DNA from: Gammaproteobacteria bacterium
GTDB lineage: Bacteria > Pseudomonadota > Gammaproteobacteria > SZUA-152
Direction of reading: 5' to 3'
Assembly: GCA_011321815.1 (NCBI GenBank)
Contig: DROS01000046.1
Location: forward strand, 1 to 64,000
DNA: 64,000 nt
Shown here: positions 3,591-64,000 of the stretch, piece by piece
Layout of the letters: each line of letters opens with the position of its first letter
Numbering within the stretch: position 1 is the first letter of the stretch
Position numbers and translations under genes: made by a program
Notes under the pieces: generated by a model
The model's database searches: none
What the model saw: only the letters and a program-made list of their open reading frames with translations
What the model was told of the DNA's origin: nothing

Positions 3591-3628
3591 ATATCCTTTG
3601 TTCGGGCTTGATTATGCCTGCCTGCTTA

Positions 3629-17654: not shown

Positions 17655-17954
17655 TGTCATTTTTGTGGGTGCCGAAATATCGACATTGTTACGTTGATGA
17701 TACCTGAAGGTCATATTCATATGGTCGTACGTGGCGAACCCAAGAAATCATCAAGTGATGTTATACCGCTGATAAAGAGAATCTTGGTCAGAGAGTTTTT
17801 TCGGTGATTTCCACCGATCAAGCGGTGTTGTTTTTGGGGAGGAAAATTGCGGGTACAAAGTTATTTTGTTAAAACGATGGGCAACGAAAATGAGGAGATG
17901 ATATGAAAGTATGTCCAAAACCAGATGGCGGAGAACGATAAGAAAGAAATATAA
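17655..17954 (+). pseudogene. Decayed IS200/IS605-type Y1 transposase
   Basis: One frame reads the IS200-like core: MIPEGHIHMVVRGEPKK with the HUH metal motif (His-Ile-His, 17712-17720), DVIPLIKRILVREFFR, then FPPIKRCCFWGGKLRVQSYF, NENEEMI and KYVQNQ with the catalytic Tyr at 17910-17912. Two in-frame TGA codons interrupt it (after EFFR and before KYVQNQ), each where CGA (Arg) would be expected, so both are explained by C-to-T changes. The expected N-terminal segment WVPKYR is present at 17666-17683 but in another frame, indicating an indel. Upstream sequence is too degraded to place a start. The element is inactive as a coding unit; no clear ends were found. Confidence 0.8.
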
Positions 17955-18106
17955 TCAAAGCCGCTGAATTTGTTCTGGTAAAACCCGGTCGTTTGTGGTC
18001 GAGTTTTTTATTACGAGAAGATTAACGGTTATCACCCCCGGGATGAATGGGAGCCGCAAGGGCCTGCAAACGGTTCAGGTCGTTGTTGAGTAAATCCAGC
18101 GGAATA

Positions 18107-19360
18107 TTAAGCGCTCCATTTCATCCACGCCATTCCGAGAAAAAAGATCACCGTGACACTGAGTGAAACATGGCTGAGCCAGCTGTTACTGTATTGCCCC
18201 AATCGTGCACGGCTGCTGTTCATGATTAATAATGCAACAGCGAGTAACGGTAAAAATGCAGCGCCAACAATACCGTAAAACTGCTGGACTTGTTTAAAGT
18301 CCATCATCAGCCCGAGCATGGGGACAATGGACAGGGCAAATAAATAACCACGATAGGGCCATGCCCGCGTATCAACCGTGACAGCATCAGCCTGTCGTTT
18401 AATAAATAAACGGTAAATGTCAGCAAATAAATAGGGCACTGCCTGCCATACACCAAACAGGCTGCTGAACACTGCGCCAAAGGCGCCGATCAGGAATAAC
18501 CAGCGCCCGGTTTCTCCCAGTGATTGCGCCAGGGTATTGGCCAGCGTGACCATTAATCCGGCACCTTTGCCGCTTAAATCCAGTTGGCTGCCAATGATCA
18601 CCATGGCAATGCCAAACACCGCCGTCAGTAAATAACCTGTTGCCAGATCAATGCGGCAGGTGCGGATATGTTCAACAGAGTCACGGTTTTTTTCCCGTAT
18701 CCAGTAACCGTAACAAAGGATTGTCAATGTGCCGCCCACGCCACCAATCAGTGCAACCGTCCACGCAACACCTTTGCCGTCTGCGTCAGGAATGCCGGGC
18801 ATAACAAGTCCTTGCAGCACCCCGTCAATTCCTGGCCACAACAGGGCGGCGGTGACCAGTACAACCGCGAACATGACGGCGATACTGAAAGCCATGATTT
18901 TCTCAAATAATTGAAAACCACCCAGCAAAACCAGCCCCAATCCCAATAAACTGCTGGCGATGCCGAATATGATTTTGGCCTGAGCGCCATCTTCAAACAG
19001 GGGAAACAAGGCATGTAGTGTCACGCCGCATGCGCTCATCAGCGCCGAACCGACAAAGAATGACCATAGCAATAAATAGGGCAGGAACAGCCAGGCGAAA
19101 ACCGGCCCCAGATTTTGTGCCAGCCCTTCTAACAAAGATTGTCCGGTGGCAAGCTGCCAGCGTGCCAAACCTTCGGTGAGTACCAGTTTGAAAACTGAAC
19201 CGATAACGACAGCCCACAAGATAGCCAGCCCCAATTGGCTTCCAGCAAAACTGGCGGTAGCCAAATCACCGGCTCCGACGCCCGTAGCGGCAATGAGAAT
19301 ACCGGGGAGAATGATTGCGAACAGGCTGGGTTGGTTGTTTTTTATGGTTGTTTTCAGCAT
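18107..19360 (-). CDS. NRAMP-fold transporter with non-canonical TM1 motif
   Basis: A membrane protein of about 417 residues and 11 transmembrane segments with the NRAMP/MntH layout. TM1 reads LPGILIAATGVGAGDLATAS where canonical metal transporters have DPGN; here the aligned residues are GAGD. The TM6 metal-binding MPH-type motif is also not evident (GGVGGTLTILCYGYWIREK). Substrate specificity for Mn/Fe is therefore doubtful; another cation or an organic substrate is possible. I prefer ATG at 19360; an ATG at 19387 in the same frame would overlap the upstream gene by 17 bp. It lies directly downstream of the PH-like gene, same strand. Confidence 0.75.
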   Translation of the reverse strand: MLKTTIKNNQPSLFAIILPGILIAATGVGAGDLATASFAGSQLGLAILWAVVIGSVFKLVLTEGLARWQLATGQSLLEGLAQNLGPVFAWLFLPYLLLWSFFVGSALMSACGVTLHALFPLFEDGAQAKIIFGIASSLLGLGLVLLGGFQLFEKIMAFSIAVMFAVVLVTAALLWPGIDGVLQGLVMPGIPDADGKGVAWTVALIGGVGGTLTILCYGYWIREKNRDSVEHIRTCRIDLATGYLLTAVFGIAMVIIGSQLDLSGKGAGLMVTLANTLAQSLGETGRWLFLIGAFGAVFSSLFGVWQAVPYLFADIYRLFIKRQADAVTVDTRAWPYRGYLFALSIVPMLGLMMDFKQVQQFYGIVGAAFLPLLAVALLIMNSSRARLGQYSNSWLSHVSLSVTVIFFLGMAWMKWSA

Positions 19361-19370
19361 TATAATTTTC

Positions 19371-19877
19371 TCAGAAGTCCCGGCCATAGGCTAATTTATC
19401 TAATAAATCCCCCACTTTGTTGACGTCGTTAACCCCTATAAGGCCAACTTTTTCTACGGAATCATTTTGTAGATTATTTATAAAGGAGTTTGTTGTAAAC
19501 ATTATATTCCCTGAGCCATCATCATTTATCTGTTTTTCAAGGTTTTGTAAATGATAAGGATAATAAGAAGTGAACGATTTAATGCTCATGTCATCCAAAA
19601 TAAGTACTCTTGTATTTGTTATTAAATAGATGGAATTTTTGGATTTGCGGTTCCCTTTTGTGGATATAAAAAATAATAAGGTGAAAAATACGGTATAAAT
19701 TCCAAAATTCAAAGGAACCAGCGATATAAAAAGAACAACCACAACAATAATGAACAATAAATTAAATCTTAAGCTAAAAGACTTTTTTGAAAAAGATTGT
19801 CCAGCCCATGTTACAATTTCACCATTTTCAAGTTCATCCTGTATCCAGGTGAAATTTTTCTTTGATAAGTTAATCAT
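19371..19877 (-). CDS. Small membrane protein with bacterial PH-like domain
   Basis: 168 residues. The start ELENGEIVTWAGQSF matches the opening of bacterial PH/DUF304-like proteins (LxxGExxxWxGQ). Two adjacent membrane helices (about 37-70) follow, then SIYLITNTRVLILDD, the first PH strand pair, and a soluble rest. Biochemical role unknown. Low GC, like the island that follows it. The stop lies close to the start of the NRAMP-like gene, suggesting cotranscription. Confidence 0.65.
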   Translation of the reverse strand: MINLSKKNFTWIQDELENGEIVTWAGQSFSKKSFSLRFNLLFIIVVVVLFISLVPLNFGIYTVFFTLLFFISTKGNRKSKNSIYLITNTRVLILDDMSIKSFTSYYPYHLQNLEKQINDDGSGNIMFTTNSFINNLQNDSVEKVGLIGVNDVNKVGDLLDKLAYGRDF

Positions 19878-19945
19878 AAGATTTATCTTTAGTGAAGTTG
19901 ATTTAAATGTTTTTTTAGCGGGAGGTTATAGATAATGTTTTAATC

Positions 19946-20101
19946 TCTTTGGGTTTAATTCCCCGCTGCTCGCAGCGACTGCCCCGCCCGCGAAACGCTT
20001 TGGGTATTCCGGCATGTTTTTAGCCGGGGAGACGTTATAAATGTTAATACCCCGTCAGCTCGCCTTAAGTGCCTACTGTTGGTGCTGTGGGGTAGTTTAT
20101 T
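19946..20101 (+). repeat. Full copy of the ~160-bp dispersed mosaic repeat
   Basis: Aligns over its whole length with 54259-54426: shared blocks are CTCTTTGGG, CCCCGCTGCTCGC, ATTCCGGCATGTTTTTAGCC, AATGTTAAT and the core TACTGTTGGTGCTG. TCCGGCAT...AGCCGG can form a hairpin. It separates the PH-like gene from the 116-aa gene. Confidence 0.85.
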
Positions 20102-20120
20102 CGGGTGGTTTTTTGGTTGA

Positions 20121-20471
20121 TTATCCGGCTGACACACCAGCCCATAAAAATAAAAGAGATGATTTAGCCAGGGACTCCTGAATGGTTTTTATTGCTGACT
20201 TGTGGTCATCAGTTACTTCAAGGCGAACAATGTCAGGCATGTTTTGTTTATTCCATGTGAATTTTTCACCTAGATAATGAATAAATCCTTCACCTTCCCC
20301 GTTGATGAGTATAACAGTCTCTATTTCTTTATCTGCTTCGAATAGACTAAAGGCTTCTTCGACAGTAATGCAACGAGATGCTGACAGTGAATTTTCAGGA
20401 TCGTTGTTATAGGCATCGGCTAGCTGTTTGTTATCGGTAATAATGATTCGGCATGGGTATACTTCAATCAT
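20121..20471 (-). CDS. Uncharacterised 116-aa protein, last gene of the biosynthetic-type operon
   Basis: I do not recognise this family. The protein looks soluble and alpha/beta: RIIITDNKQLADAYNN, VEEAFSLFEADKEIETVILI, IVRLEVTDDHKSAIKTIQES, with a hydrophobic C-terminus LLFLWAGVSAG. It contains two cysteines. Its ATG overlaps the stop of the asparagine-synthetase-like gene by 8 bp (ATGATTGA), so it is translationally coupled and likely belongs to the same pathway. It could be a partner, carrier or regulator of the synthetase; nothing in the sequence decides. Confidence 0.7.
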   Translation of the reverse strand: MIEVYPCRIIITDNKQLADAYNNDPENSLSASRCITVEEAFSLFEADKEIETVILINGEGEGFIHYLGEKFTWNKQNMPDIVRLEVTDDHKSAIKTIQESLAKSSLLFLWAGVSAG

Positions 20472-21984
20472 GATTTTTTCCTTCTCGATTTAGCAGCCAG
20501 TTATTCAAAGTAATTAACCCATAAAAAAGTAGTGGTGAATCAGTAGCGCTTAGAAAATCAGTATGTTCAAGTATTTCTTCGTTAAAATAACCGGTTGATT
20601 TTAATTCTGTAATATTGATCATCTCAGCTGGCATATTTTCAATAAAATGTTTAAGTGGAATAATAGTTCCAGATTTTTTACGCTTTATGATGCTTTCAGG
20701 TATTTTGCGCTTAAATAATTCATTTAACACCAGTTTTCCGTTGGGATAAGTATATCTTTTTTCATCTTTAAGATGAAATGCAGATTGATAAACGCTCAGG
20801 TTCGTCAATGGATGGTGTACCGATACGCCATATCGTTTTCCAGGATAATAAGATTGCGGAAAAATCATGCCTCCCTGTTTTTCAATAGTGTTGAGATAAA
20901 ATAATTTTCTAAGAAGCTCCCCGGGATAAAATTCGATTTTTTTATTTAGATATTCAATGACATAATCTATCAATTCATTGCCATGGATAAAAATATCATT
21001 TAGCCGGTTGAAAAAACGGCAGTGTGTATAAGCATAAATCCATCCAAGAGATATTTGAGGATGCTGGGCATGCGCGAATAATACACTGGTATTTTTTACG
21101 CCGCCAAAAACAGGGTCTCCTCCCTCACCGGTAATTGCCGTGTTGGATGTTGCCTGCGCCAGAGCATATTTGGCAATAACACAGGTATCAATAACCGGAC
21201 CACTATGTCCCCGGGTAAATTGTTTGTGTTGACGTATAAAATTATCCGGTGAAAGTTGTGCATAGCGCAATGGTACCTGGCAATGTTCAGCTATTTCTCG
21301 GGCATATTGAATCTCTCCATCGCCATATTTACTTAATGCGTCATCATCATAACCCATCGTTAATATTTCAGCAGTTCCGCCATTACGGTTAAAGCAATGA
21401 GCCATGGCGGAAGAGTCAATACCTCCCGAGCACCATATGTCAAAATGCTGATGATTCTTTTGCAGCTTTGATGCTTCTTCAAAAATACATTTTTCAACAT
21501 CATTTATATGGGCATTGTCTGTTTCTTCTATGGGAGTGAACACGCTTTCTTCAGTGATTTTATTGTTTTTGTAATGATAAAGCGTAATATTTTTGCATGA
21601 TTTAATCTCGTTAAATGCAGTCATACCCTGCGGTATATAACCCAATGAAAAATATAATGCCAAAGCTTCTTCAGATAGACTCAAGTTGATGTCATTTTTT
21701 TCAATCCACCAGTCAATATGTAAAATATCATTTGTTAAAAATAATTTACTGTCAGTGTGTATGAATAATAGAGGATATTGTCCAAGATAGTCACGGCCAA
21801 AGGTAATTTGTCGATTTTTTATGTTGACTTCAATTGCAATCCCACGTTCCCGATTAATTAAATCACGGGATGACTTTAAATCTTCAAACCCGGGAGATAC
21901 ATATAAAATATTGTTGGAATACTTTTTTTCAACAAACCCACGCATTTGTATTTTAAAAATATCTAGTTCTATTTCCAGCCACAT
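20464..21984 (-). CDS. Asparagine-synthetase-like ATP-dependent amide synthetase lacking the glutaminase Cys
   Basis: 506 residues. The C-terminal PP-loop synthetase has WCSGGIDSSAMAH (SGGxDS at 186-192), TGEGGDPVFGG (286-296) and a C-terminal IKRKKSGTIIPL segment. It should adenylate a carboxylate and form an amide or C-N bond. The N-terminal half keeps the late glutaminase-fold motif GRDYLGQYPLLF but starts MWLEIELD, without the Met-Cys nucleophile of class II amidotransferases, so it cannot hydrolyse glutamine by the usual route. This recalls beta-lactam synthetases and lasso-peptide cyclases, which use an internal or peptide amine. Start at ATG 21984, 4 bp after the methyltransferase stop. 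Low-GC sequence compared with the housekeeping flanks. Confidence 0.85.
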   Translation of the reverse strand: MWLEIELDIFKIQMRGFVEKKYSNNILYVSPGFEDLKSSRDLINRERGIAIEVNIKNRQITFGRDYLGQYPLLFIHTDSKLFLTNDILHIDWWIEKNDINLSLSEEALALYFSLGYIPQGMTAFNEIKSCKNITLYHYKNNKITEESVFTPIEETDNAHINDVEKCIFEEASKLQKNHQHFDIWCSGGIDSSAMAHCFNRNGGTAEILTMGYDDDALSKYGDGEIQYAREIAEHCQVPLRYAQLSPDNFIRQHKQFTRGHSGPVIDTCVIAKYALAQATSNTAITGEGGDPVFGGVKNTSVLFAHAQHPQISLGWIYAYTHCRFFNRLNDIFIHGNELIDYVIEYLNKKIEFYPGELLRKLFYLNTIEKQGGMIFPQSYYPGKRYGVSVHHPLTNLSVYQSAFHLKDEKRYTYPNGKLVLNELFKRKIPESIIKRKKSGTIIPLKHFIENMPAEMINITELKSTGYFNEEILEHTDFLSATDSPLLFYGLITLNNWLLNREGKNHD

Positions 21985-43080: not shown

Positions 43081-43211
43081 GGTACGCTGGCAAAAAAGAG
43101 TTCATATGTTTTACACCACACAAGTCAATTGGCGAAAGGAACGATGGCGCGGCTGAGGCCGCTGTCTATGGAATGCCCTGTCCTGTCCGTTTGACTTTGT
43201 AGGTGATGAAC

Positions 43212-44717
43212 ATGAATGAAAAACAATTTGCTGTCCTTGCGGCACAAAGTGCAGCACAAAAAATCAATCGCATCCCGCTGATGCGTGAAGTGCTGGCCGA
43301 TCTCGATACCCCGCTGAGCACCTATCTCAAGTTAGCCAATGGCCCTTATTCCTATCTGTTCGAATCTGTACAGGGCGGTGAAAAATGGGGGCGGTATTCC
43401 ATTATTGGTTTGCCCTGCCGTACCCTGCTCAAGGTATCGGGCAATCTCATCGAAGTGGAAACGGATGGCGAAGTCGTAGAGTCATTGCACAGCGAAGACC
43501 CCCTGGCCTGGATCGAGGCCTTTCAGGCACGCTATCAAGTGGCCGGGGTGAAAGGTTTGCCGCGTTTCACCGGCGGGCTGGTGGGTTATTTCGGTTACGA
43601 CACCATTCGTTACATCGAACCGAAATTATCGGATTGCCCTAATCCGGACGAGCTGAACACACCGGACATTCTGTTAATGGTGTCCGAAGAAGTGGTGGTG
43701 TTCGATAACCTCAGTGGTAAATTGCATCTCATCGTACATGTGAATCCTGCGCAGCCCGACGCCTTTGTCTCTGGTCAGCAACGTCTTGATGAGCTGGAAG
43801 CACGATTACGTGAAGCGACACCGCGTGCTGATCTGCGAACAGGCAATGACGTCAACGAAGCCGATTTTATCTCCGGTTTCACCGAAGCAGGCTTCAAACA
43901 GGCAGTGGAAGCCGCGCGGCAATACATTGTTGATGGCGATGTCATGCAAGTGGTCTTGTCGCAGCGTCTGTCAGTCCCTTATTCTGCACCGCCACTGGAT
44001 TTATATCGAGCTCTGCGCAGTCTTAATCCATCACCGTACATGTTTTATCTCGACCTGCATGATTTTCATATCGCAGGTTCTTCACCGGAAATTCTAACGC
44101 GGCTGGAAGGTGATGTGGTGACCGTGCGCCCCATCGCCGGCACCCGTCGCCGTGGTCACGACGAAGCCGAAGATCGTGCCATGGAAACAGAATTGCTGGC
44201 CGACCCCAAAGAACTGGCCGAGCATTTGATGCTCATTGATCTGGGCCGTAACGATGTGGGCCGCATCAGCGAAACCGGCAGCGTTGAACTGACGGAAAAA
44301 ATGTTAGTGGAACGTTACTCCCATGTCATGCACATCGTCTCCAACGTCGAAGGCAAACTGAAACCCGGCATGAGTGCGATGGACGTGTTGCGGGCAACCT
44401 TCCCCGCAGGCACCGTGAGCGGTGCGCCGAAAATTCGAGCCATGGAAATTATTGACGAACTGGAACCTGTGAAACGTGGCGTGTATGCCGGTGCTGTGGG
44501 GTATCTCGGTTGGAATGGCAACATGGATACGGCGATAGCGATTCGTACGGCGGTGATCAAATCCGGCACACTGCATATTCAAGCAGGGGCCGGTGTGGTT
44601 TGTGATTCACAGCCGAAACTGGAATGGAAAGAAACCATGAACAAGGGACGGGCCGTGTTTCGTGCGGTAACCATGGCTGAAGCCGGGTTGGATGGCTCGG
44701 TGGATGTGCATAGATAG
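43212..44717 (+). CDS. trpE: Anthranilate synthase component I
   Basis: Converts chorismate plus ammonia to anthranilate. 501 residues from ATG 43212 (AGGTGAT 5-10 bases upstream; GTG 43203 and ATG 43206 also in frame). The feedback motif near [24 protein letters not shown]-like [61 protein letters not shown] and [15 protein letters not shown]-type core identify it. The partner trpG lies 460 bp downstream; the GxxExxY element sits between them, with its first base in the trpE stop codon. Confidence 0.96.
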
Positions 44718-45164
44718 AGTATTTAACGCAAAGGCTTTATGGATGAGAATGTTTTGGCAAACCGGGTTATTGGCGCGGTTATTGAGGTGCATAAATACCT
44801 TGGGCCAAGCTTGATGGAATCGGCGTATCATGCCTGTCTAATGCATGAACTGGAACTTGGGAGGTTACATTTCGAAAGTGAATTTTCCGTTGTGGTGGAC
44901 TATAAGGGTTTGGCGGTTGCGGATGCATATAGAGTGGATTTAATGGTAGAAAATAAACTGATTGTAGAATTGAAAACGGTGGCCAGTCTGGGTGATATTC
45001 ACAAGGCCCAATTATTAACATATCTGCGCTTGACAAAACGAAAGTTGGGTTTGTTGATCAATTTCAATGAACTGCTGTTGAAGCATGGAATTCAAAGAGT
45101 AGTGAACAGCTTATGATTTACCTTTGCGTCCTTCGCGCCTTTGCGTCCTTTGCGTTAAATACTC
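44717..45164. mobile_element. 448-bp element with perfect 18-bp terminal inverted repeats, inserted between trpE and trpG
   Basis: GAGTATTTAACGCAAAGG (44717-44734) and CCTTTGCGTTAAATACTC (45147-45164) are exact inverted copies. Inside lies one gene (GxxExxY protein, 44739-45116), followed by CGCAAAGG-type tandem words (CCTTTGCGTCCTTCGCG then CCTTTGCGTCCTTTGCG). No target duplication is evident. No transposase is encoded, so mobility, if any, would need a partner or the nuclease-fold protein itself. Confidence 0.75.
44739..45116 (+). CDS. GxxExxY-family PD-(D/E)XK-fold protein
   Basis: 125 residues. The opening [20 protein letters not shown] with Tyr following is the family motif (here SLMESAY, Ser in the usual Gly place). 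The nuclease-like core follows: [16 protein letters not shown] with Asp, then Glu-x-Lys, as in PD-(D/E)XK enzymes, then [19 protein letters not shown]. Biochemical function of this widespread family is not established to my knowledge; nuclease or recombination activity is inferred from the fold. It is the only gene in the inverted-repeat element and is co-oriented with trp genes. Confidence 0.9.
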
Positions 45165-45177
45165 CGGGGCATGCTCA

Positions 45178-45768
45178 ATGCTGTTAATGATCGACAACTA
45201 CGATTCCTTCACCTACAACCTGGTGCAATACTTTGGTGAGCTGGGCACCGATGTGTGTGTGTATCGCAATGACCAAATCACCCTGGACGAGGCGATTAAA
45301 CTGAACCCCGAACGCATCGTTATTTCACCCGGGCCCTGTACACCCAACGAAGCAGGTGTTTCACTGGAAATGATCAAACACTTTGCCGGTAAAGTGCCGC
45401 TACTGGGTGTGTGTTTGGGCCACCAGAGTATTGGCCAGGCATTTGGAGGCAAGGTTGTGCATGCGGGCAATATCATGCACGGCAAAACCTCAATGATGCA
45501 TCATAAAAACAAAGGTGTATTTGCCGGTCTGGATAATCCTTTTGAAGCCACGCGCTACCACTCACTGGTGATCGAAAAAGACAGCCTGCCGGATTGTCTG
45601 GAAGTGACGGCATGGACGGAAACCGACAATGGTGAACGGGATGAGATCATGGGTGTGCGGCATAAAACACTGGATGTGGAAGGCGTGCAGTTCCATCCCG
45701 AATCCATTCTCACCCGGCACGGCCACGATCTGTTGAAGAATTTTTTACAGCAAAAAAGGGGAATCTGA
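45178..45768 (+). CDS. trpG: Anthranilate synthase component II (glutamine amidotransferase)
   Basis: Supplies ammonia from glutamine to TrpE. 196 residues from ATG 45178: [50 protein letters not shown] with the catalytic Cys, and [13 protein letters not shown] with the His-Glu pair. The open frame extends 18 codons into the repeat element, an extension I reject. Its TGA overlaps the trpD ATG (TGATG). Confidence 0.96.
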
Positions 45769-46793
45769 TGGATATGCCATCCGCCATTCACGCCGTTACT
45801 GAACGCCGCAATCTCACACGAGACGAAATGCAATCGGTGATGAACACCATCATGACCGGCGAGGCCACACCGGCACAGGTCGGAGGTTTTCTGGTCGGCC
45901 TGCGCATGAAAGGCGAAACCATTGATGAAATTACCGCTGCTGCACAAGTGATGCGCGAACTGGCCACTAAAGTGACGGTGAGTGGTGAGCACATTGTGGA
46001 TATTGTCGGCACAGGTGGAGACGGCAGCGGTACGTTTAATATTTCCACCGCGAGCTGTTTTGTGGTGGCCGGTGCCGGTGGCAAGGTGGCAAAGCATGGC
46101 AACCGTTCTATTTCCAGCAAATCCGGCAGTGCCGATCTGCTGGAAGCCGCCGGAGTGAATCTGGATCTCGGCCCCGAGCAGGTCGCGAAGTGCGTGCACG
46201 AAGTGGGTGTGGGTTTTATGTTTGCACCCAAACATCACGGTGCGATGAAACATGCCATCGGCCCACGCAAGGAAATGGGTGTGCGCACTGTTTTTAACGT
46301 GCTGGGGCCGCTCACCAACCCTGCCGGTGCCCCCAATCAATTGCTGGGAGTGTTCAGCAAGGAGCTGGTGGAGCCTCTGGCCCATGTGCTGGCCAACCTC
46401 GGCAGCCACCATGTACTGGTGGTGCATTCGGAAGATGGAATGGATGAAATCAGCATCGGTGCGCCAACCTTTGTGGCGGAATTGAAAAACGGTGAAGTGA
46501 CTACGTACACCATCCAGCCGGAGGATTTTGCATTGACTCGCGCTGATCTTGCCTCACTGAAAGTAGAGGATGCAGCGCAGTCCTTAACGGTGGTGAAAAG
46601 CGTATTGGAAAACCAGCCGGGTCCAGCGCGCGATATTGTGCAATTAAACGCCGGTGCCGCACTGTATGTGGCGGGGCTGGCTGATTCCCTGGCAGCAGGT
46701 GTGGCAAAAGCTGATGAAGTACTGGCCAGTGGCAAGGCGCTCGCCAAACTGGATGCTCTGGTGAAGGTATCTAATTCCGGTTCGTCAAATTAA
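45768..46793 (+). CDS. trpD: Anthranilate phosphoribosyltransferase
   Basis: Transfers phosphoribose from PRPP to anthranilate. 341 residues: [20 protein letters not shown] (PRPP loop), [68 protein letters not shown] and [11 protein letters not shown]. Coupled to trpG by a one-base overlap. Confidence 0.97.
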
Positions 46794-54590: not shown

Positions 54591-55679
54591 ATGAATAAAA
54601 AATTATTAGCAGTTGCTGTAAGTGCTGCTTTGGTTGCCCCTGCGGCAGCCATGGCGGGTGATGTATCCGTGTACGGTAATGCCCAGGTGGAAGTCGCCAG
54701 CTACTCTGAAGACTCTGCTGGTAGTGGCAAGGACGGTGTGGCGATTGAAGATAATGCCCGTGGCCGGGTGGGAGTAAAGGCCTCTGAAGATCTGGGTGGC
54801 GGCCTGAAAGCAATTGCCCAGTTTGAGTGGCAGGTGGATACCACGGATAACAATGTGGGCAAATGTTCTACTACTGCCACGATTGATGAGACAGTTACTG
54901 GTACTGATGTTAATGGCGATGGCGACGCAACAGACACAGCAGCGAAAGTGGGCTGCTCCAGCAGCCTTTCTTTGTCTGGTCGTGTTTCCCAGGTTGGTCT
55001 GACCGGTGGTTTTGGTACGGTGGTTTTGGGTAATCTGAAATCGCCTTATAAATACACCGGTGGTGTAAAGTATGACCCGTTTGTCACGACGTCACTACAG
55101 GCTCGTAGCAATGGCGGCATGTCGGGTAAAAACCTTGACCCGACGGGGACAGGTGCTTTGGGGCACCACAGCTTTGTGAGCAATCTGGTTGCTTATGCTT
55201 CGCCAAAAGGCCCTGTGACAGCCTCCATCGGCTATGGGGCTGCTGAGAATGATGGTTTGGTGGTGGCGGACCTGAAATACAGTGCGGGTGGTGTGGAAGC
55301 ATTTGTTGTTTACCTTGATGCGGGTGACCGTTTGGTGACTACGGCTGCACCCAATGCTGAATATTCTGCCACTAAAATTGGTGGCCAGTGGAAGTCGGGT
55401 GCGCACAAGGTCTCGGGTCAGTACGAGATGATCGATAATGGCACAGACAAGCCTACCGTGCTGTTCCTGGGCTACCAGATGAAGATGGGCAAAAATACCT
55501 TTGCAGCCCAATATGGCCAACTTAACTGGGATGTGAACACCATAGACGACACCACATATATGGCGTTGGGTGTGATCCACAAAATGTCTAAAATGACCCG
55601 CGTGTTTGCTGGTTATCGCGATACCAGTGATGTCGAAAGCGTTGTGACCGTTGGTCTGCGTAAAGACTTCAAGTCTTGA
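54591..55679 (+). CDS. General porin (Gram-negative porin family)
   Basis: 362 residues. Signal peptide 1-22 (ALVAPAAAMA) followed by GDVSVYGNAQVEVASYSE, the typical first strand. RGRVGVKASEDLGGGLKAIA and FEWQVDT are hallmark blocks of 16-strand porins; QVGLTGGFGTVVLGNLKSPY starts the loop-3 region. Ends TVGLRKDFKS, so the usual terminal Phe is displaced by two residues. A loop at about 88-115 (DVNGDGDATDT) looks like a Ca-binding or acidic insert. Forms passive diffusion channels. GGAG lies about 15 bases before the ATG. Confidence 0.93.
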   Translation: MNKKLLAVAVSAALVAPAAAMAGDVSVYGNAQVEVASYSEDSAGSGKDGVAIEDNARGRVGVKASEDLGGGLKAIAQFEWQVDTTDNNVGKCSTTATIDETVTGTDVNGDGDATDTAAKVGCSSSLSLSGRVSQVGLTGGFGTVVLGNLKSPYKYTGGVKYDPFVTTSLQARSNGGMSGKNLDPTGTGALGHHSFVSNLVAYASPKGPVTASIGYGAAENDGLVVADLKYSAGGVEAFVVYLDAGDRLVTTAAPNAEYSATKIGGQWKSGAHKVSGQYEMIDNGTDKPTVLFLGYQMKMGKNTFAAQYGQLNWDVNTIDDTTYMALGVIHKMSKMTRVFAGYRDTSDVESVVTVGLRKDFKS

Positions 55680-56116: not shown

Positions 56117-57229
56117 ATGGGCAATGTACTCGTCTTGCGAATGAATTTACGAAAAACAGGGTATTGGTCATGTTTGCTGTTGATGACTGTGTTAGGTGGG
56201 TGTGCTTCGCCGCCGCAGTTGTCGAAAGACCAGCCTATCTACTGGCCCAAGCCGCCAGCTGCGCCACGCTTTGTGTATGTGACTACGCTGGTGTCGGGGG
56301 AAAGTATCCGCAGGGAAAGCACGGAAGACCGGTTTTTCAAGGCCTTGACGGGAGCCAAAGGTGAAGCCCGCGTTTTTGTCAAACCGTTTGGTGTGGCTGC
56401 CAAAAATGGCGTGGTGGTGGTGACAGATACTGTGTTGCGACAAGGGTTTATTTTCAATCTGCGACGCCAGAAGCTGTATCCTTTGGGGCGAGTGGGTAAA
56501 CAAGGTTTGTTAAGCAAGCCGCTGGGGGTGGCAATTGGCACGGAGGGCCAGATTTATATTGCTGATGCGAGCGCAAAAAAGGTGATTGTCTACGATACCT
56601 TTGGGATGTATCTCAGGGATATTGGTGGTTTCGGTGAGCTGGATCGCCCTGTCGATGTGGCGATGTCACCGGATGGAAAGCGGGCATATGTCATGGATGC
56701 GGGAGGTATTGACAGCAGGCGTCACCGGGTGGTGGTGTATTCCTCAGAGGGGGTGAAACTGTTCGAGTTTGGCGCGCGCGGCAGGGGGGCGGGGGAGTTT
56801 AATCTGCCTACGCAAGTGGAGGTTGCGCCGGACGGCACGGTTTATGTGTTGGATGCGGGTAATTTCCGGTTGCAGGCATTCTCAGCCGACGGTCAGTTTC
56901 AGCGAGCCTGGGGTAAAGTAGGCCGGAATTTTGGTGATTTTGCCCGGCCACGAGGCCTGGCAGTGGATGGTGATGGTAACATTTATGTTTCTGATGCAGC
57001 CTTTCGTAACGTGCAAGTGTTTAACCCCAAGGGTGAATTGTTGCTGGCAATCGGTAGCAAGTCGCTTGTGGGCAAGCCGGGAGATCTGGCGATGCCTGCA
57101 GATGTGGCGGTGGACGAATTACAGCACATCTATATTGTGGATCAGGTTTTCAAGAAAGTTGAGGTATTGCGTCGACTGAGTGAGCAGGAGATGAAGGCGA
57201 TTGTTGCCAAGCGAAAGAATGACGAGTAG
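56117..57229 (+). CDS. NHL-repeat lipoprotein, first gene of the cytochrome locus
   Basis: 370 residues. Lipobox VLGGC (about residue 29) predicts an envelope lipoprotein. Repeated beta-propeller blades: VKPFGVAAKNGVVVVTDT, LSKPLGVAIGTEGQIYIADA, LDRPVDVAMSPDGKRAYVMD, LPTQVEVAPDGTVYVLDAGN, ARPRGLAVDGDGNIYVSDAA, MPADVAVDELQHIYIVDQ: six NHL blades. In porin-cytochrome loci such proteins accompany secreted cytochromes, probably as a scaffold. Start uncertain: ATG 56141 (residue 9) is equally plausible. Confidence 0.85.
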   Translation: MGNVLVLRMNLRKTGYWSCLLLMTVLGGCASPPQLSKDQPIYWPKPPAAPRFVYVTTLVSGESIRRESTEDRFFKALTGAKGEARVFVKPFGVAAKNGVVVVTDTVLRQGFIFNLRRQKLYPLGRVGKQGLLSKPLGVAIGTEGQIYIADASAKKVIVYDTFGMYLRDIGGFGELDRPVDVAMSPDGKRAYVMDAGGIDSRRHRVVVYSSEGVKLFEFGARGRGAGEFNLPTQVEVAPDGTVYVLDAGNFRLQAFSADGQFQRAWGKVGRNFGDFARPRGLAVDGDGNIYVSDAAFRNVQVFNPKGELLLAIGSKSLVGKPGDLAMPADVAVDELQHIYIVDQVFKKVEVLRRLSEQEMKAIVAKRKNDE

Positions 57230-57698
57230 TGTGCCATGGACGTAAAGATATGTGGACATAAAATATTTTTTTAGTGTGTAAAGGTGAGTATAATCACATT
57301 CGTTGTACGTAAATGAGATTAAGCAATGTGCAATAGTCAATCTGAATTTGTGTGAACCGGGTCACACTTCTGCGAAGCAATTTTGCGCATAGCGTGGCGA
57401 GAGGCGAGCGCCAAAGTTGTGGCTTTTTGTGCACCCTGTTGATTCTTCGCCGTTTTTCTGTTGTGATAAAGGCTTGAGTGTGAAAGTTATGGTTTGCCCG
57501 TTTGTTGGTTCAGGGCATTGTTGAAATTGACATCTTGTTGTTAGGCATGTTAAAAAGTGTCTTCAGTGAGGGAGCAGTTCGTTTACCTTGGGTGTTGTAG
57601 CAGACCCCGGGTTTACGTAGCAGTAGTAAGCCCGTCTTGGGCGAACAGTAGGAAATATATTTATTAATTCTCGTGCACGAGACCATTATGGGGGTTTC
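57230..57698. other. 469-bp leader region before the tetrahaem cytochrome
   Basis: Contains GCGCCAAAGTTGTGGCTTTT near 57408, a weak terminator-like stem, and GGGTTTACGTAGCAGTAGTA then AGCCC near 57608, a hairpin (GGGTTTAC/GTAAGCCC) about 80 bases before the start. I looked for a GEMM-type riboswitch and did not see one. Confidence 0.4.
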
Positions 57699-58724
57699 AT
57701 GATGAAACATTTTGTAAAAACGTCGGTAGCGACGGCAGTGGTGCTAGGGGCGACTCTGGTGGCGACTGGGGCATTTGCCAGTATAGCGGGTTCAATTGTT
57801 AATACGCGTCACAATATGGGTTCCACAGGTCAGGGTCCTAACACTGCCGACGCTGCCAATACTGCTGAAATCTGTATCTTTTGTCATACACCTCATGGTG
57901 GTAGTACGACGGATGCAAATGGTAACAAGGTGGCGGTTCCTTTATGGAACAAGCAGCTTAGCACAGCAGTCTTTTCCACTTACGACCAATTGGGCACTTC
58001 GACTCTGGATGCCGCAGTGGGCACGGTGGGTTCGGTGTCGCTGGCATGCTTAACCTGCCATGATGGCACGCAGGCTATCGATAATATCATCAATGCCCCG
58101 GGTTCCAGTGGTTATGACAGTACCGGTGGTGGTGTTGATGGGTTGACCTGGACATGGAACACTGATGGGTCTTTGAATACCCAAGGCCGGTTTGTGAATT
58201 CTGTGGATGTAGGTGGTGCTAATATTTGGGCGATTGGTACCGATCTGACCAACGATCATCCGGTCAGCATGCAATACGGTGGTGGTGGTTATTCCTCGCC
58301 TTCCAATCTGAATGGTGGCGCGTTTAATTCGATTGCCCCGACTCGTGATATGGACTTTTTGCCTGCGGTGAATATTGCTGGTACCGCCCGTTGGTACGTT
58401 GAGAACACAGTGATGGCAGAGACAGGTGCCGGTGGTGAAGCGCAAAATGGTGTGCTTGATAAGTGGGACTTCAAGCTGTACACCCGCGATACTTCACTGG
58501 AGACTTACACTTCCGAAAATGGTGCAACCTTTACCGGTGAGCTGGAGCCTTTTGTGGAGTGCGGTTCCTGTCATGATCCACATTTCCAAACCACTACTTT
58601 CCTGCGTATGGAAGGTGTGACGGACGTGAATACTGACCTGCAAACTGGGGGGATTTCTCCGGATGCGGGCAACCTCCAGTCAAACCGGGGGAGTCGTGTT
58701 TGTTTGGCTTGCCATGCCAAATAA
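57699..58724 (+). CDS. Tetrahaem c-type cytochrome (doubled-CXXCH type)
   Basis: 341 residues. Signal peptide 1-28 (VLGATLVATGAFA). Four haem-binding sites: CIFCH (59-63), CLTCH (117-121), CGSCH (288-292) and CLACH (335-339). Between sites 2 and 3 lies a long Gly/Ser/Asn-rich region with few charges. The N-terminal block VNTRHNMGSTGQGPNTADA and SFVIHLM-like spacing before the first haem resembles doubled-CXXCH proteins found next to NHL and PpiC genes in metal-reducing bacteria. Secreted or outer-surface electron carrier. GGGGG precedes the ATG. Confidence 0.9.
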   Translation: MMKHFVKTSVATAVVLGATLVATGAFASIAGSIVNTRHNMGSTGQGPNTADAANTAEICIFCHTPHGGSTTDANGNKVAVPLWNKQLSTAVFSTYDQLGTSTLDAAVGTVGSVSLACLTCHDGTQAIDNIINAPGSSGYDSTGGGVDGLTWTWNTDGSLNTQGRFVNSVDVGGANIWAIGTDLTNDHPVSMQYGGGGYSSPSNLNGGAFNSIAPTRDMDFLPAVNIAGTARWYVENTVMAETGAGGEAQNGVLDKWDFKLYTRDTSLETYTSENGATFTGELEPFVECGSCHDPHFQTTTFLRMEGVTDVNTDLQTGGISPDAGNLQSNRGSRVCLACHAK

Positions 58725-58756
58725 GCTGAACCAGCTTTTGGTTTGAAGACTTGATG

Positions 58757-58799
58757 GGCTGGTAGTCTGGCGGCGACGCTTAGGCTACCAGCCTTTTTT
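58757..58799 (+). terminator. Rho-independent terminator after the tetrahaem cytochrome
   Basis: GGCTGGTAG (58757-58765) pairs with CTACCAGCC (58785-58793), then TTTTTT. Confidence 0.88.
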
Positions 58800-58953
58800 A
58801 TTGGCCAGGAAAAAGTTAAATTTGGGAACTTCTGATAAATTCAGGCGAAATTTGTAATGAATAACAAGGGCCGCCGATATTTTGAATCAGGGTTTTTTGC
58901 TGATGATTCAGCTGGCAGGAGTTTCTTGATATTTCTTTGTTAAATAGCGTTGC

Positions 58954-59970
58954 ATGGGGTGTTGGGTGGAAAAACAGACATTTTTGAGAGCAGGCGTGTT
59001 GCTGCTGATTTTGTGGGCCGGGAGCATTTTAGCGGCGCCGCAGCCGGATGAAGGCGTGACAAAGAAAGACGAGAAAAAGCCGCCGGCGCTTGATTATATC
59101 GCGATCGTGAATGGACAAAAAATTTCCATGGGCGAGTATGTTTCAGCGTTGCGTCGAGGTATCAGAGACCGCTTTTATCATGGCAAGATCGAAGAGGATG
59201 AGGCAAAAAAGTTTCGCAAGGAGATTGCCGATGAACTTGTTGAGAGGGCTCTGCTGATCCAGGAGGCCAAACGACGCAAATTAAAGCCGGATGTGGATGA
59301 AGTTGAAGCGGGTGTGAAAGCATTTGACGCAAAATTTCAGGCCGATCCGGAGTGGGCGGAGGCGCGCGATAAAGTGTTGCCACAGGTGCGTGAAAAACTA
59401 AATGGTGATAGCTTGGTCAAAGTGCTTAAAGTGGCAGTGAAAAAAATAAAGGCGCCAACAGAAGATGAGCTGAATAAATATTATCTGGAACATACAGACC
59501 TGTTTACGACACCACCTCGTGACCGGGTTTCTTTGATATTGTTACAGGTTGACCCCGCTTCATCCTCGGATGTATGGAAGCAGGCAAGTGATGAGGCAAG
59601 AACGATTGTCGAACGCCTGGATGCGGGGGCTGATTTTGCGGAATTGGCAAGGATTCATTCCAGCGATAAATCAGCTGAAAATGGTGGGGACATGGGGTTT
59701 ATGCATAAAGGTATGTTGGGGGAAAATGCGCAACAGGTGCTGGATATTATGGAGCCGGGAGAAGTTTCCGCCCCAGTAGTGTTGTTGGAAGGGGTGGCGA
59801 TATTTCGACTGAATGAGCGCACCAAGCCGGAATTGAACAGTTTTGAGTCGGTAAAGGAGCGGGCGCAGCAGCTGTATCAACGGGAGAAAGGTGAGGAGGT
59901 GTGGCGAGCTCTTTTGGAGCAGTTGCACGCGAAGGCTACAGTCGAAATCAACGACGCGCCTTGGCGCTAA
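58954..59970 (+). CDS. PpiC/SurA-type periplasmic peptidyl-prolyl isomerase
   Basis: 338 residues. Signal segment about 10-28 (LLLILWAGSILAAP). SurA-N-like helices with IVNGQKISMGEYVSALRRGI and IADELVERALLIQEAKRRKL (35-130), then a parvulin domain (about 190-300): RVSLILLQVDPASS, ADFAELARIHSSDKSAENGG, GDMGFMHKGML and APVVLLEGVAIFRLNE. It would fold outer-membrane proteins or cytochromes; its site between cytochrome and barrel genes suggests it serves the neighbouring barrel. Confidence 0.92.
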   Translation: MGCWVEKQTFLRAGVLLLILWAGSILAAPQPDEGVTKKDEKKPPALDYIAIVNGQKISMGEYVSALRRGIRDRFYHGKIEEDEAKKFRKEIADELVERALLIQEAKRRKLKPDVDEVEAGVKAFDAKFQADPEWAEARDKVLPQVREKLNGDSLVKVLKVAVKKIKAPTEDELNKYYLEHTDLFTTPPRDRVSLILLQVDPASSSDVWKQASDEARTIVERLDAGADFAELARIHSSDKSAENGGDMGFMHKGMLGENAQQVLDIMEPGEVSAPVVLLEGVAIFRLNERTKPELNSFESVKERAQQLYQREKGEEVWRALLEQLHAKATVEINDAPWR

Positions 59971-60159
59971 ACTCTTGCGAGACATGTATTTGCGCACATT
60001 TGGTGGCTGACATACACTGATTTTGGGTGTGGAGCCTGAGGGGGGCCCAGATGTTGAAGTGTATTTGGGGCTGGGTGTTATCTGAACTTAGAGTGGGGGC
60101 TTGTTTCGTGTAATGCGGGGGAGGTAAAGTTCGTTTGTCCGTGTTTCAGCACGAATCTG

Positions 60160-61941
60160 ATGTATATGATATCTTGGGGTGCTATTTTGCGGCGACAAGT
60201 GTGGTTTGCTGTCGCCTTAGGGGTTTTTGTGCCGTTTGAGGTGTATGCCGCCTTCAATGGCCTTGTGCCGTTATCGTATTCCGGGCGCGTTTCCTATATG
60301 TATGGTTATGTGGACAGTGCTGGCAATCAGTCGGAATTGACCAATCTGTTGTTTGGCTGGAGTGCGGGAGGGTATATTTGGCGCCCTTGGTTTGCCACAA
60401 CCTCTTTGGCGTTGAATGTCGGTTTGACAAGCACAAATTCAACATCCAGTAGTTCTGAGGGGACCATGGGTACGGGTAATTTTAGCCTGGGAGTATTTCC
60501 CCGAAGCCGTTTCCCTTTTTCGCTGGACTATGCGCGAACGGATAGTCGTTCGCAGCAGTTTTATGATGTTACCCAGGTATCCGGCGAAACCAGTTTCCGG
60601 ACAACACGTCTGACTTTGCGGCAGAGTTACCGCCCGCGGAAACATAACCAGCTATTTAATGGCTGGTATAATTTAACGCAGTTTGATGGCGGGACCTTTG
60701 GCTCGAACAGCCAAGTCTATGGAGTGGATTATCAATTGCGCGTACCGCAACAAGCAGTTGCCGTGAGTGCATCGCATTCAGCAGTCAGTAGTCGTGGCAT
60801 TTCGGGTGAGTCGACAGTGGACGTTGTTTCAGCCAGTCATGTCTATACACCAAGTGTGGAGTTGGGTGTTACCAGTCTGTTTTCATACGTGGAACTTAAC
60901 CCGATCGGGGCCGAGTTAACAACGACTAACTCACAGGCGTTCAGCTCTTTTTTCTGGCGGCCGGAGCATCGGGCAGTCAATGTGTCGGGTGGTGTTCGAT
61001 TGTCAGAAAATGAAAATAAAGCAGCCACATCGCGTAGTTTGAATACAAATTTGGCGCTGGGTTATCGGATAACCCGCTCGTTAAACATGAACGCAAGTAT
61101 GTCGTTAGGCACTTCTTCTAGTGGCGGGGGGAGCCAGACGCTGTCAACATCACAAACAGTAAATGTTTCATACACGGGCAGGCGGCGACAATGGCGGGGG
61201 ATTTCGTACTTCTGGCAGTGGGGGGCGAGCGGGACAAATTCGGCGGCCAGAACTGAGCCAGCCGGAGGGAAGTCTGAATCGACAGAGCAGCAAAGTGTTT
61301 CAGCAAGTCTTGGGCATAATTTCAACAAATCCTGGGTGACGGGACGGGCCTCCTCCCTGTCGGCGACTTTTTCTCAGTCAGGTTCTGGCAGCAAGTCCAC
61401 CCAAGCAGACGAGGTTAGTAAAACGCTCAACCATGGTATGAGTGTCGGCTGGAATACAAGAGGACGAAGGGGGGCGAGCTATATTAATGGCCGGTTGTCT
61501 GATTCCAGGAGTTTTGGTGTTAACGAAACTGTTTTTAACAGTTTCAATTTGAGTTATGCGACAGACCTGACGATCAATAGACTGAGTAGCATGACGGGCA
61601 ATGTAAATTATCAGGCAAGTCGAAACACTTCGGATATCAATTCGTCGGGGGCAGCGGTGCCGGAGGCAACGGGGAAAGTTACGAGTACCACAAAAAATCT
61701 GACGGGTGGGATGGCGTACAGCAATAATAGACCCTTTGGAATATATAATCTTACTTTTACTTCACTGGTGCAGGGGAGTAAGCAGATTGACAGTCCCGTG
61801 CCATCAACGACATTGCGATGGGAGTCGGTTTTCCGTTATCAGCTGGGATTGCTGTCAACCACATTGAGCTTTCGGGTTTCCGAGAGTGCCGGAGGAAATT
61901 TGGCGAAATCAATGAATTTTCAGGCTACCCGTACTTTTTAA
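60160..61941 (+). CDS. Large outer-membrane beta-barrel (candidate conduit porin)
   Basis: 593 residues. An N-terminal hydrophobic segment (about 9-30, ending FVPFEVYA) as signal, then alternating strands to the end: VSYMYGYVDSAGNQ, TSLALNVGLTSTNS, RVSYTG-type repeats, LNMNASMSLGTSSSGGGSQT, SLSFRVSES and a terminal ATRTF with C-terminal Phe, the outer-membrane sorting signal. About 22-26 strands can be counted, similar to MtrB-like or Pcc barrels that hold cytochromes in the membrane. No metal or catalytic motif. Role in electron transfer is inferred from the neighbours. Confidence 0.8.
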   Translation: MYMISWGAILRRQVWFAVALGVFVPFEVYAAFNGLVPLSYSGRVSYMYGYVDSAGNQSELTNLLFGWSAGGYIWRPWFATTSLALNVGLTSTNSTSSSSEGTMGTGNFSLGVFPRSRFPFSLDYARTDSRSQQFYDVTQVSGETSFRTTRLTLRQSYRPRKHNQLFNGWYNLTQFDGGTFGSNSQVYGVDYQLRVPQQAVAVSASHSAVSSRGISGESTVDVVSASHVYTPSVELGVTSLFSYVELNPIGAELTTTNSQAFSSFFWRPEHRAVNVSGGVRLSENENKAATSRSLNTNLALGYRITRSLNMNASMSLGTSSSGGGSQTLSTSQTVNVSYTGRRRQWRGISYFWQWGASGTNSAARTEPAGGKSESTEQQSVSASLGHNFNKSWVTGRASSLSATFSQSGSGSKSTQADEVSKTLNHGMSVGWNTRGRRGASYINGRLSDSRSFGVNETVFNSFNLSYATDLTINRLSSMTGNVNYQASRNTSDINSSGAAVPEATGKVTSTTKNLTGGMAYSNNRPFGIYNLTFTSLVQGSKQIDSPVPSTTLRWESVFRYQLGLLSTTLSFRVSESAGGNLAKSMNFQATRTF

Positions 61942-62033
61942 TGTAGGGTAGTATGTGCGCTGCACGTGGCATAACAAAATCACAGGCGGCGCGTGTTTTG
62001 GTTTTTTTTGGTGAATTTATGGAGGGAGGCTCT

Positions 62034-62441
62034 ATGTTCAAGTCAGCGATGGTCGGCTTGTTGAGTATGTTAGCAGTCTTGATGCTGCCGCAGGCGGCGC
62101 AGGCTGAATATGCTGATGTAGTTATCAACAATTATGCTGATGCGGCGGGTATGCGTCCGGCGGTTTTTCCGCATTGGTACCACCGCATCCGTTTCCGCTG
62201 TAAGGTTTGTCATGCGGATCTTGGTTTTAAATTTAAGGCCGGTGGCAACAAAATCACTATGGCAAAAATTATCGACGGCAAGTTCTGCGGAGCCTGTCAT
62301 AACGGTGAGATTTCATGGTCGGTTGAAAACTGCGGTATGTGTCATTCAGGGGTGCCTGGCACACCAACGCAAATCCACGGTAGTACCGTACAGCGATTGG
62401 TTGCGCCGACATATAAGTCTTTGGGCAAGCCAGCTAAATAA
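62034..62441 (+). CDS. c7-type trihaem cytochrome
   Basis: 135 residues from ATG 62034 with a textbook GGAGGGAGG upstream; a 27-codon upstream extension is rejected. Signal peptide 1-24 (LPQAAQAE). Three haem sites: CKVCH (56-60), CGACH (85-89), CGMCH (100-104), with FPHWYH supplying likely axial histidines. Pattern of the triheme 'nanowire' c7 domain. It starts 92 bases after the barrel gene. Confidence 0.92.
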   Translation: MFKSAMVGLLSMLAVLMLPQAAQAEYADVVINNYADAAGMRPAVFPHWYHRIRFRCKVCHADLGFKFKAGGNKITMAKIIDGKFCGACHNGEISWSVENCGMCHSGVPGTPTQIHGSTVQRLVAPTYKSLGKPAK

Positions 62442-62462
62442 CGACAAAGGAGGAGGGTAAAA

Positions 62463-63125
62463 ATGAAAACAAAATACTTCTTCTTGAGCGTACTGGCGAT
62501 AACGGCGTTATTGGTCGTTGGTTTTAATGCTCAGGCAGCTCAAGCACCGATGAAGGAAGTTAAATCAGCGAAGGGTAAGGTGAGCGGGGCGAACATTTTT
62601 AATCGCCTGCTCAAAAAAGACAAACAACGTAATGCGCCACCAGCGGAAGATGGTATTCATGACCCGGCCAATGATGGTACGCATGTGTTGCAACCGCCAT
62701 TGATTGCTTATGACGGATTGCCTACGACTGAATTTGGTAATTATGTGGACTGGGTGAAATCACTGGATGATGGTCTGTTGAAACCACGTTATGACCGCTT
62801 TGATCCCACCGTGGAGCCATTGGTAATGGATCTGGATATCGTTCGTGAAGTGCGTGCATCGATGCCTGATGTGGTATTTCCGCATAAACCACATACTCAG
62901 TGGTTGCATTGCTCTAACTGCCACCCGAAAATCTTCATTCCGCAGCGTAACGCTAACGTGATCAGCATGTCGGCAATTTTGTTGGGACAGAAGTGTGGGG
63001 TGTGTCACGGTAAGGTGTCTTTTCCGATTACTACAAAATCATGTACCAAGTGTCACTCCAAGCCGAAACCGGCTGACTGGAAGCCGCCGAAAAGTGAAGC
63101 CAGTTTGAAAAACCCGTGGCGGTAG
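62463..63125 (+). CDS. Second trihaem c-type cytochrome with N-terminal extension
   Basis: 220 residues. Signal peptide 1-26 (LLVVGFNAQAAQ). A haem-free N-terminal region (40-130, rich in Pro and Asp) precedes three haem sites: CSNCH (150-154), CGVCH (178-182) and CTKCH (194-198), with VVFPHKPHTQWLH giving axial histidines, as in c7/c3 cytochromes. AAGGAGGAGG lies 7 bases before the ATG. It follows the previous cytochrome by 21 bp. Possibly periplasmic partner of the first. Confidence 0.92.
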   Translation: MKTKYFFLSVLAITALLVVGFNAQAAQAPMKEVKSAKGKVSGANIFNRLLKKDKQRNAPPAEDGIHDPANDGTHVLQPPLIAYDGLPTTEFGNYVDWVKSLDDGLLKPRYDRFDPTVEPLVMDLDIVREVRASMPDVVFPHKPHTQWLHCSNCHPKIFIPQRNANVISMSAILLGQKCGVCHGKVSFPITTKSCTKCHSKPKPADWKPPKSEASLKNPWR

Positions 63126-63174
63126 TTTTTGCTGCAGTGAGTAGTCGTTGATGGGTTTGATGTTGTAAAGCCGG

Positions 63175-63206
63175 GATGCGGTGCAGATAGATGTCTGTGC
63201 CGCATC
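63175..63206 (+). other. Strong hairpin after the trihaem cytochromes
   Basis: GATGCGGTGCAGA pairs with TCTGTGCCGCATC with two mismatches and a short loop; no long T-run follows, so transcription may continue into the next gene. It could be an mRNA-stabilising or partial terminator hairpin. Confidence 0.6.
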
Positions 63207-63273
63207 TTGGTATCCCGTATTGTCTTTATTATATGCCAGTGGTTTCTTCGAATTTTGTTGAGGGTGAGTCAAA

Positions 63274-64000
63274 ATGTCAAAGCTCCGCGCTAGAATTGCG
63301 CTATTTTTCTACATGGCAACAGTGTTGAGTCTGGTGGCTTGTGGTGGTCAAACGGTCAAACCTGAGGGGAATGCCGTCGTTGATACAGTGGAGCCGAAGG
63401 CAGTAGAAGCTGCATCAGCAGTAACTCAGAAACCTGTTGTTGTTGAGGATAAGCCGGAATCACTGGTTGAAGTTATGCCACAAAAGCAAGAGGGCAGAGT
63501 GTCGATTGGCGTGGAGCCCATTCCTGCTAAGCAGGATATGTTGGCCGCAGAGGAAGTAAAATCAGCAGCCGATATTCCTGTGCCCAAAAAACCGGTTGTT
63601 GTTTCGGCCGCGCCAGGTAAACCTGAACCGACAGTTGCATCAGGGGTGGCGGCATCTGAAGCAGAGAAAAAAGTAAGACCGGTTTCCGCAGGACCAAACC
63701 GGTTTGTGGTGACCGTTGGTCCCAAAAAGTCCACTCATCCGGCGTATGGCAAAGGGCATGCTATGGGTTTTTTGGTGGATGGTGTTTCAGGTAAGGAGTT
63801 GGTGATTGAACGCGGGAAAGTTTATACGTTCGAAATTGTTACCAACCCAAAACATGATGTGTATTTGTCAAAAAAAGCGGTGGGCTGGGGGGGGGCGCCT
63901 TTTGCGGCTGGTGTGGAAGGGGCATATACTTACAAAGGCGAAATGACGCTTAAAGCGGACAAAGAGACACCAGATCAATTATTCTATGCTTGCCGTAATC
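63274..64000 (+). CDS. Lipoprotein with cupredoxin-like C-terminal domain (3' truncated)
   Basis: Open from ATG 63274 to the window edge without a stop, at least 242 residues, so it was missed by stop-to-stop calling. Lipobox SLVAC (about residue 22) follows a signal segment. Residues 23-145 are a Pro/Val/Ala/Lys-rich disordered linker. From about 147 the domain FVVTVGPKKSTHPAYGKGHA, LVDGVSGKELVIERGKVYTF, EIVTNPKHDVYLSKK, VGWGGAPFAAGVEGAYTYKG is cut at ADKETPDQLFYACRN. It looks like a cupredoxin- or DOMON-like beta sandwich with possible Cys/His ligands. Family not certain; belongs to the cytochrome locus by position. Confidence 0.7.
   Translation, partial: MSKLRARIALFFYMATVLSLVACGGQTVKPEGNAVVDTVEPKAVEAASAVTQKPVVVEDKPESLVEVMPQKQEGRVSIGVEPIPAKQDMLAAEEVKSAADIPVPKKPVVVSAAPGKPEPTVASGVAASEAEKKVRPVSAGPNRFVVTVGPKKSTHPAYGKGHAMGFLVDGVSGKELVIERGKVYTFEIVTNPKHDVYLSKKAVGWGGAPFAAGVEGAYTYKGEMTLKADKETPDQLFYACRN

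Follow-up and report, generated by a model that had tools for sequence, protein, structure and literature searches.

Gene content of the locus

The window analysed here is a 64,000-nucleotide stretch of a gammaproteobacterial genome (assembly GCA_011321815.1), comprising bases 1-64000 of contig DROS01000046.1 (C46), which ends at 73358; window and contig coordinates are identical. Its last part, continuing to the contig end, carries a multihaem cytochrome locus that is almost certainly a copy of the uet (undecahaem electron-transfer) cluster uetABCDEFGHIJ. The system is already named and little studied and hence not new, and the window copy is a further member of it. An earlier sequence-only reading had listed seven consecutive, co-oriented genes at 56117-64000, and all seven open reading frames (ORFs) were found in place on the plus strand, several of them with family profile matches. 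It had also estimated at least ten haem sites, in agreement with the ten CXXCH motifs (4+3+3) that we counted inside the window. Together with the continuation to 73358, the locus has 24. The genes are as follows.

54591-55679, plus strand: general porin of the Porin_4 family (PF13609, E 3.8e-29), outside the uetA-J set and absent from the sequence-only reading
56117-57229, plus strand: NHL-repeat (propeller) lipoprotein, an extra gene 5' of uetA (PF01436, E 4.7e-25; lipobox Cys29)
57699-58724, plus strand: uetA, tetrahaem cytochrome homologous to the OmcE nanowire protein (4 CXXCH)
58954-59970, plus strand: uetB, periplasmic SurA/PpiC-type protein (PF00639, E 4.8e-16)
60160-61941, plus strand: uetC, predicted outer-membrane beta-barrel of 593 aa and roughly 26 strands (amphipathic segments, C-terminal Phe, synteny)
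61953-62441, plus strand: uetD, trihaem c7-type periplasmic cytochrome (TIGR04257, E 1.5e-17), with its true start probably at 62034
62463-63125, plus strand: uetE, trihaem c7-type periplasmic cytochrome (TIGR04257, E 8.9e-17)
63274-64908, plus strand, crossing the window end at 64000: uetF, lipoprotein (lipobox Cys23) with an N-terminal cupredoxin-like motif and a C-terminal helical, partly TPR-like region
64914-65534, contig C46 past the window end: uetG, trihaem cytochrome (3 CXXCH)
65512-66588 and 66509-67726, contig C46 past the window end: uetH and uetI, NHL lipoproteins
67846-70545, contig C46 past the window end: uetJ, 899-aa cytochrome (11 CXXCH)
70598-72787, contig C46 past the window end: lactonase-type propeller, 729 aa

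UetD and UetE both exceed the cut-off of TIGR04257 ('nanowire_3heme'). Gaps of 469 and 229 bp flank uetA, and scans for promoters and terminators returned no more sites than in shuffles.

Extending the locus past 64000, as the sequence-only reading had proposed, brought uetG to uetJ and cytochrome c maturation genes, and no nitrogen or sulfur oxidase. In several relatives a second uetJ and propeller follow 3' of the propeller, and then ccs and ccm genes. Here, the start of an apparent second uetJ (73216-73358) is broken by the end of contig C46. Contig C91 opens with the end of a uetJ (2-565, 63% identical to UetJ 693-877), after which lie CcsB/CcsA-like, TlpA-like and Ccm-like genes. We infer that the two contigs probably adjoin and that the locus continues on C91. 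A tandem uetJ-propeller repeat, as in the relatives, may have caused the assembly break.

Elsewhere in the window, trpE and trpD lie at 43203-46793, and the other ORFs scanned were ordinary housekeeping or transport genes.

Identity as a uet cluster

The Uet system of Tenderiales has been described as an undecahaem UetJ, a tetrahaem UetA, a peptidyl-prolyl isomerase (PPIase) UetB, a barrel UetC, trihaem UetDEG and NHL-repeat UetHI (PMC10734462), and the cluster has been named uetABCDEFGHIJ (PMC12575090). At our locus ten genes stand in the A-J order, with four haems in UetA, three each in UetD, UetE and UetG and eleven in UetJ by CXXCH count. All ten genes, their order, the haem numbers (4, 3, 3, 3, 11), the PPIase, the barrel and the NHL repeats are shared with the Uet of Candidatus (Ca.) Tenderia electrophaga and Tenderiales, a pathway also present in Gallionella and Leptothrix. 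The Tenderia gene tags support this identity, since the trihaem Tel_16515, 16520 and 16530, the TPR-domain Tel_16525 amid them and the undecahaem Tel_16545 (PMC5371394) match the order D, E, F, G, (H, I), J. In Ca. Tenderia sp. BWSM_60 (L120), A to F run in order up to the contig end, and UetD is 78% identical.

A cluster of the same kind, called MHCR and containing Ccm and Ccs genes, is known from the cathode-enriched 'Ca. Thiomicrorhabdus electrophagus' (PMC9751133). The presence of ccm/ccs genes there, as here, supports the uet assignment. The MHCR of this organism (ISEC-1), which belongs to a different genus, likewise has cytochromes with between 3 and 11 haems, along with a barrel, 6-bladed propellers and Ccm/Ccs, and is described as highly homologous to that of Tenderia. 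Its ccm/ccs genes lie within one 30-gene cluster, whereas those of the window genome are on the separate contig that opens with the end of the probable second uetJ. Unlike the Tenderia cluster, the window locus has a porin gene and an extra NHL lipoprotein gene on its 5' side, and on its 3' side the gene of a lactonase-type propeller and a probable second uetJ. Together with the ccs/ccm genes on another contig, these would be family-specific additions to uet. A Porin_4 homologue adjoins the locus in about 15 loci of the window's bacterial family, and the extra NHL lipoprotein gene is kept in that family and in some other lineages.

Conservation and distribution

The order tetrahaem cytochrome, PpiC, barrel, c7, c7, UetF, c7, NHL, NHL, 11-haem cytochrome recurs across many families of the class, which excludes a chance arrangement. 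The barrel is present in 20 of the 24 genomes of the window's bacterial family, where the whole gene order is repeated; of the 369 genomes sampled from the class, 50 had a UetD match. Genomes from a second class of the phylum also carry the cluster, and a Magnetococcales record (L154) displays the order. Scanning a genome collection with UetD gave 484 relatives, with strict synteny in those examined, including a biocathode bin (L144). No match to uetJ was found among the plasmids of PLSDB.

Haem numbers are nearly constant: four in 98 of 99 complete UetA copies and eleven in all 69 UetJ copies, with some genomes counted twice. Median identity to the window proteins was 74% for UetD (54 loci), 67% for UetE, 60% for UetG, 57% for UetJ, 51% for UetA, 41% for UetB, 39% for UetF and 31% for UetC. 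By this measure the predicted periplasmic carriers are conserved, UetD more so than any other Uet protein, and divergence is fastest in the barrel. Separate short sets of uetD-, uetE- and uetF-like genes with no adjoining barrel were seen in some genomes (L069, L070, L073). Another contig (L068) has six related c7-type multihaem genes, which point in both directions and may represent an expanded relative of uetD/E/G.

UetA and UetJ resemble the OmcE nanowire subunit

The best match of UetA among solved structures was 7TFS (E 1.2e-16 as a single sequence and 9e-33 as a 19-sequence profile), which is recorded simply as a cytochrome c and which we take to be the OmcE filament subunit of Geobacter sulfurreducens; 9YUQ was second. 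UetA (341 aa) and OmcE (232 aa) are homologous and have in common four CXXCH motifs, T-x-H, TPH, NDHP, x-x-H after CxxCH and a C-terminal CLxCHxK. Mature UetA has exactly eight invariant His in 64 sequences, namely the four in CXXCH and His38 (T-x-H), His66 (TPH), His187 (NDHP) and His295 (DPH). The same four distal-His motifs are found in OmcE in the alignment. These eight conserved His would be just sufficient for bis-His ligation of four haems. In OmcS and OmcE filaments, one haem ligand is supplied by the adjacent subunit (PMC9473688). The sequence-only reading had correctly recorded a tetrahaem cytochrome here and overlooked its nanowire homology.

Judged from its alignments, UetJ opens with a UetA-like four-haem module. 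Residues 8-283 align with UetA (BLAST E 3e-26), UetJ also matches OmcE (E 9e-25), and the four distal His are retained at 39, 74, 176 and 241. Given this homology, we consider the chances about even that UetA forms extracellular filaments. More speculatively, UetJ might be a filament-to-cell adaptor, able to continue or end the UetA array. A complete nanowire-based uptake system, in which UetA would polymerise in the manner of OmcE and UetJ would cap the filament and connect it, by way of the UetC barrel, with the trihaem carriers of the periplasm, is likewise a tentative proposal that we hold to be rather doubtful.

The same genome has a second nanowire-type locus on contig C109 (4031 bp, L177), on the minus strand at 3236-3928, 1265-3088 and 149-1234. 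It encodes a 230-aa tetrahaem cytochrome that matches OmcE over nearly its full length (E 4e-31). Also encoded there are another, different possible barrel (607 aa), an NHL protein and the beginning of one more OmcE-like cytochrome. On the minus strand of contig C91, at 17658-20831 (L175/L176) and near ccm genes, lie an OmcE-like cytochrome with five haems, an NHL lipoprotein that is a relative of the product of 56117-57229 in the window, and another 5-haem protein.

The UetC barrel and other conduits

UetC had no sequence match in Pfam, NCBIfam or PDB. None of the 76 UetC proteins matched TIGR03509 (MtrB/PioB) at E 0.1, and no TIGR03509 match was found in the genome, where the controls of the search were likewise without a match. 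The protein has 25-28 amphipathic segments where column shuffles give 11-17, and 69 of 76 homologues end in Phe. These features suggest a large barrel, and the label rests on them and not on a family match. The gene is syntenic across the family and the class.

Membership of the barrel in the Mtr/Pcc systems was rejected, as there is no family match. MtrCAB / MtoAB and PCC3 likewise combine a barrel with multihaem cytochromes for probable trans-outer-membrane electron transfer, but in contrast to MtrCAB / MtoAB, UetC has no TIGR03509 match and the uet core has no decahaem MtrA-type gene. A four-gene porin-cytochrome set in Methylobacter (PMC13322032) was rejected as a match because it is of the MtrAB type. 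Two systems of Desulfobacterota are likened here by description only: the Osc (OmcS-companion) operon, with nanowire-type cytochromes and folding and secretion helpers, and the OetABI conduit, a porin with multihaem cytochromes. The sequence-only reading was thus right to see in this gammaproteobacterium a locus for porin-cytochrome electron transfer and to set its gene order apart from Mtr and the described Pcc systems; what it missed is that the arrangement already bears the names Uet and MHCR.

UetB and UetF

Although UetB matches the PpiC-type profile, it lacks the catalytic His of parvulin PPIases, which sits in an [AS]-H-I-L motif. Position 194 is Leu in the window protein and Leu, Ile, Thr or Met in 56 of 60 homologues (the other four are not listed). 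This replacement suggests that UetB may act as a chaperone and not as an isomerase.

In UetF, His194 and Cys240-x2-His243-x2-Met246 are invariant in 60 sequences and form a type-1-copper-like ligand set. The profile evidence comprises a match to the pseudoazurin 3TU6 at E 0.6 and to PF25489, weak in 24 of 28 members and below the cut-off in the window protein. The 'cupredoxin-like' label given earlier to this lipoprotein is therefore backed by an invariant predicted copper-ligand set, but its profile matches are weak. From the conserved ligands, the N-terminal part of UetF probably carries a copper site. In a few members, TPR models hit the C-terminal region, in agreement with the published TPR annotation.

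Genome context and electron direction

The window genome encodes two RuBisCO large chains and SoxB and is probably that of an autotrophic sulfur oxidiser; Ca. T. electrophaga is also reported to have two RuBisCO forms (PMC12575090). Among genomes of the class, RuBisCO was present in 40 of the 42 that match UetD strongly, compared with 136 of the 327 that lack such a match (Fisher p 3e-12). In Tenderia, the expression of three trihaem genes at a cathode is among the highest (PMC5371394). Electron transfer across the outer membrane by this locus is very likely. Electron uptake is favoured because of the RuBisCO co-occurrence and the published cathode enrichments of other carriers, and on these grounds we lean towards an inward direction. 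The published context and the autotrophic, probably sulfur-oxidising genome also speak against the metal or interspecies exchange that the sequence-only reading had suggested.

Proposed working and alternatives

We regard as the likely overall explanation a uet cluster in which UetA stands outside, UetC is the pore and UetJ the link, and inward electrons support CO2 fixation. UetA would be exported and would probably polymerise through a His donated to the adjacent subunit, as in OmcE. UetC would be the outer-membrane pore, and UetJ, with its UetA-like four-haem module and seven further haems, would connect the UetA array to the cell; the locations of these proteins and their assembly into a complex are what we infer from the features above. 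UetD, UetE and UetG would serve as periplasmic c7-type carriers, UetF as a lipoprotein with a probable copper site, and UetB, UetH and UetI as assembly or secretion helpers. Electrons would leave a solid donor such as a mineral or electrode and pass through the periplasm to the respiratory chain, feeding CO2 fixation.

Several points weigh against this explanation. UetA is about 110 residues longer than OmcE and has a long variable middle, and homology to OmcE is no proof of polymerisation. Direction is not readable from sequence, and porin-cytochrome conduits can work both ways. The association of uet with RuBisCO ignores phylogenetic relatedness, and the uet mapping is based on secondary descriptions and Tenderia gene numbers.

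The cluster might instead mainly fold, secrete and anchor a cytochrome nanowire in an Osc-like manner, with UetB folding, UetC exporting and the NHL propellers guiding the assembly of UetA as cargo, and electrons following the filament. The osc genes have been proposed to act on OmcS in folding (OscH), secretion (OscE-G) and morphology (OscD) (PMC13194489). This analogy, the position of an OmcE homologue beside a PpiC-type protein, a barrel and propellers, and the missing catalytic His of UetB, which would suit a chaperone, are all consistent with such a role. A secretion device would not need as many as three conserved trihaem carriers plus an 11-haem protein, however, and UetD is the most conserved protein of all; we therefore consider this explanation unlikely.

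Somewhat less probable still is outward transfer, in which respiratory electrons would be dumped on minerals or partner cells, as the sequence-only reading had it. In Geobacter and sulfate reducers, OmcE- and OetABI-type systems have been associated with export or with exchange between species, and the anatomy of the locus does not encode direction. Yet RuBisCO is present in the overwhelming majority of carriers. The window genome itself encodes two RuBisCO large chains as well as SoxB, and cathode enrichments yielded the best-studied carriers. Finally, service of the cytochromes to a periplasmic sulfur or nitrogen enzyme oxidising a soluble donor would suit a likely sulfur oxidiser but is very improbable, as the conserved 10-gene core has no oxidase or reductase subunit and the locus goes on into NHL, uetJ and ccm genes.

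Implications

The analysis yields several new leads: UetA and UetJ are tied to OmcE, UetF has a copper-ligand motif, the active site is altered in UetB, and the cluster is widely distributed. The first three were not found in the literature covered, which did not include key primary papers, and no priority is claimed for them. The OmcE link provides a concrete structural prediction. If nanowire-based uptake through UetA and UetJ were true, cytochrome nanowires would be widespread in autotrophic gammaproteobacteria and would serve electron uptake. For the route of electron uptake in cathode- and mineral-oxidising autotrophs, Uet is a leading candidate in uncultured Tenderiales-like bacteria. 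The breadth of the cluster, with a UetD match in 50 of 369 genomes of the class and its occurrence in Magnetococcales, suggests that far more bacteria have the trait than the few carriers described so far.

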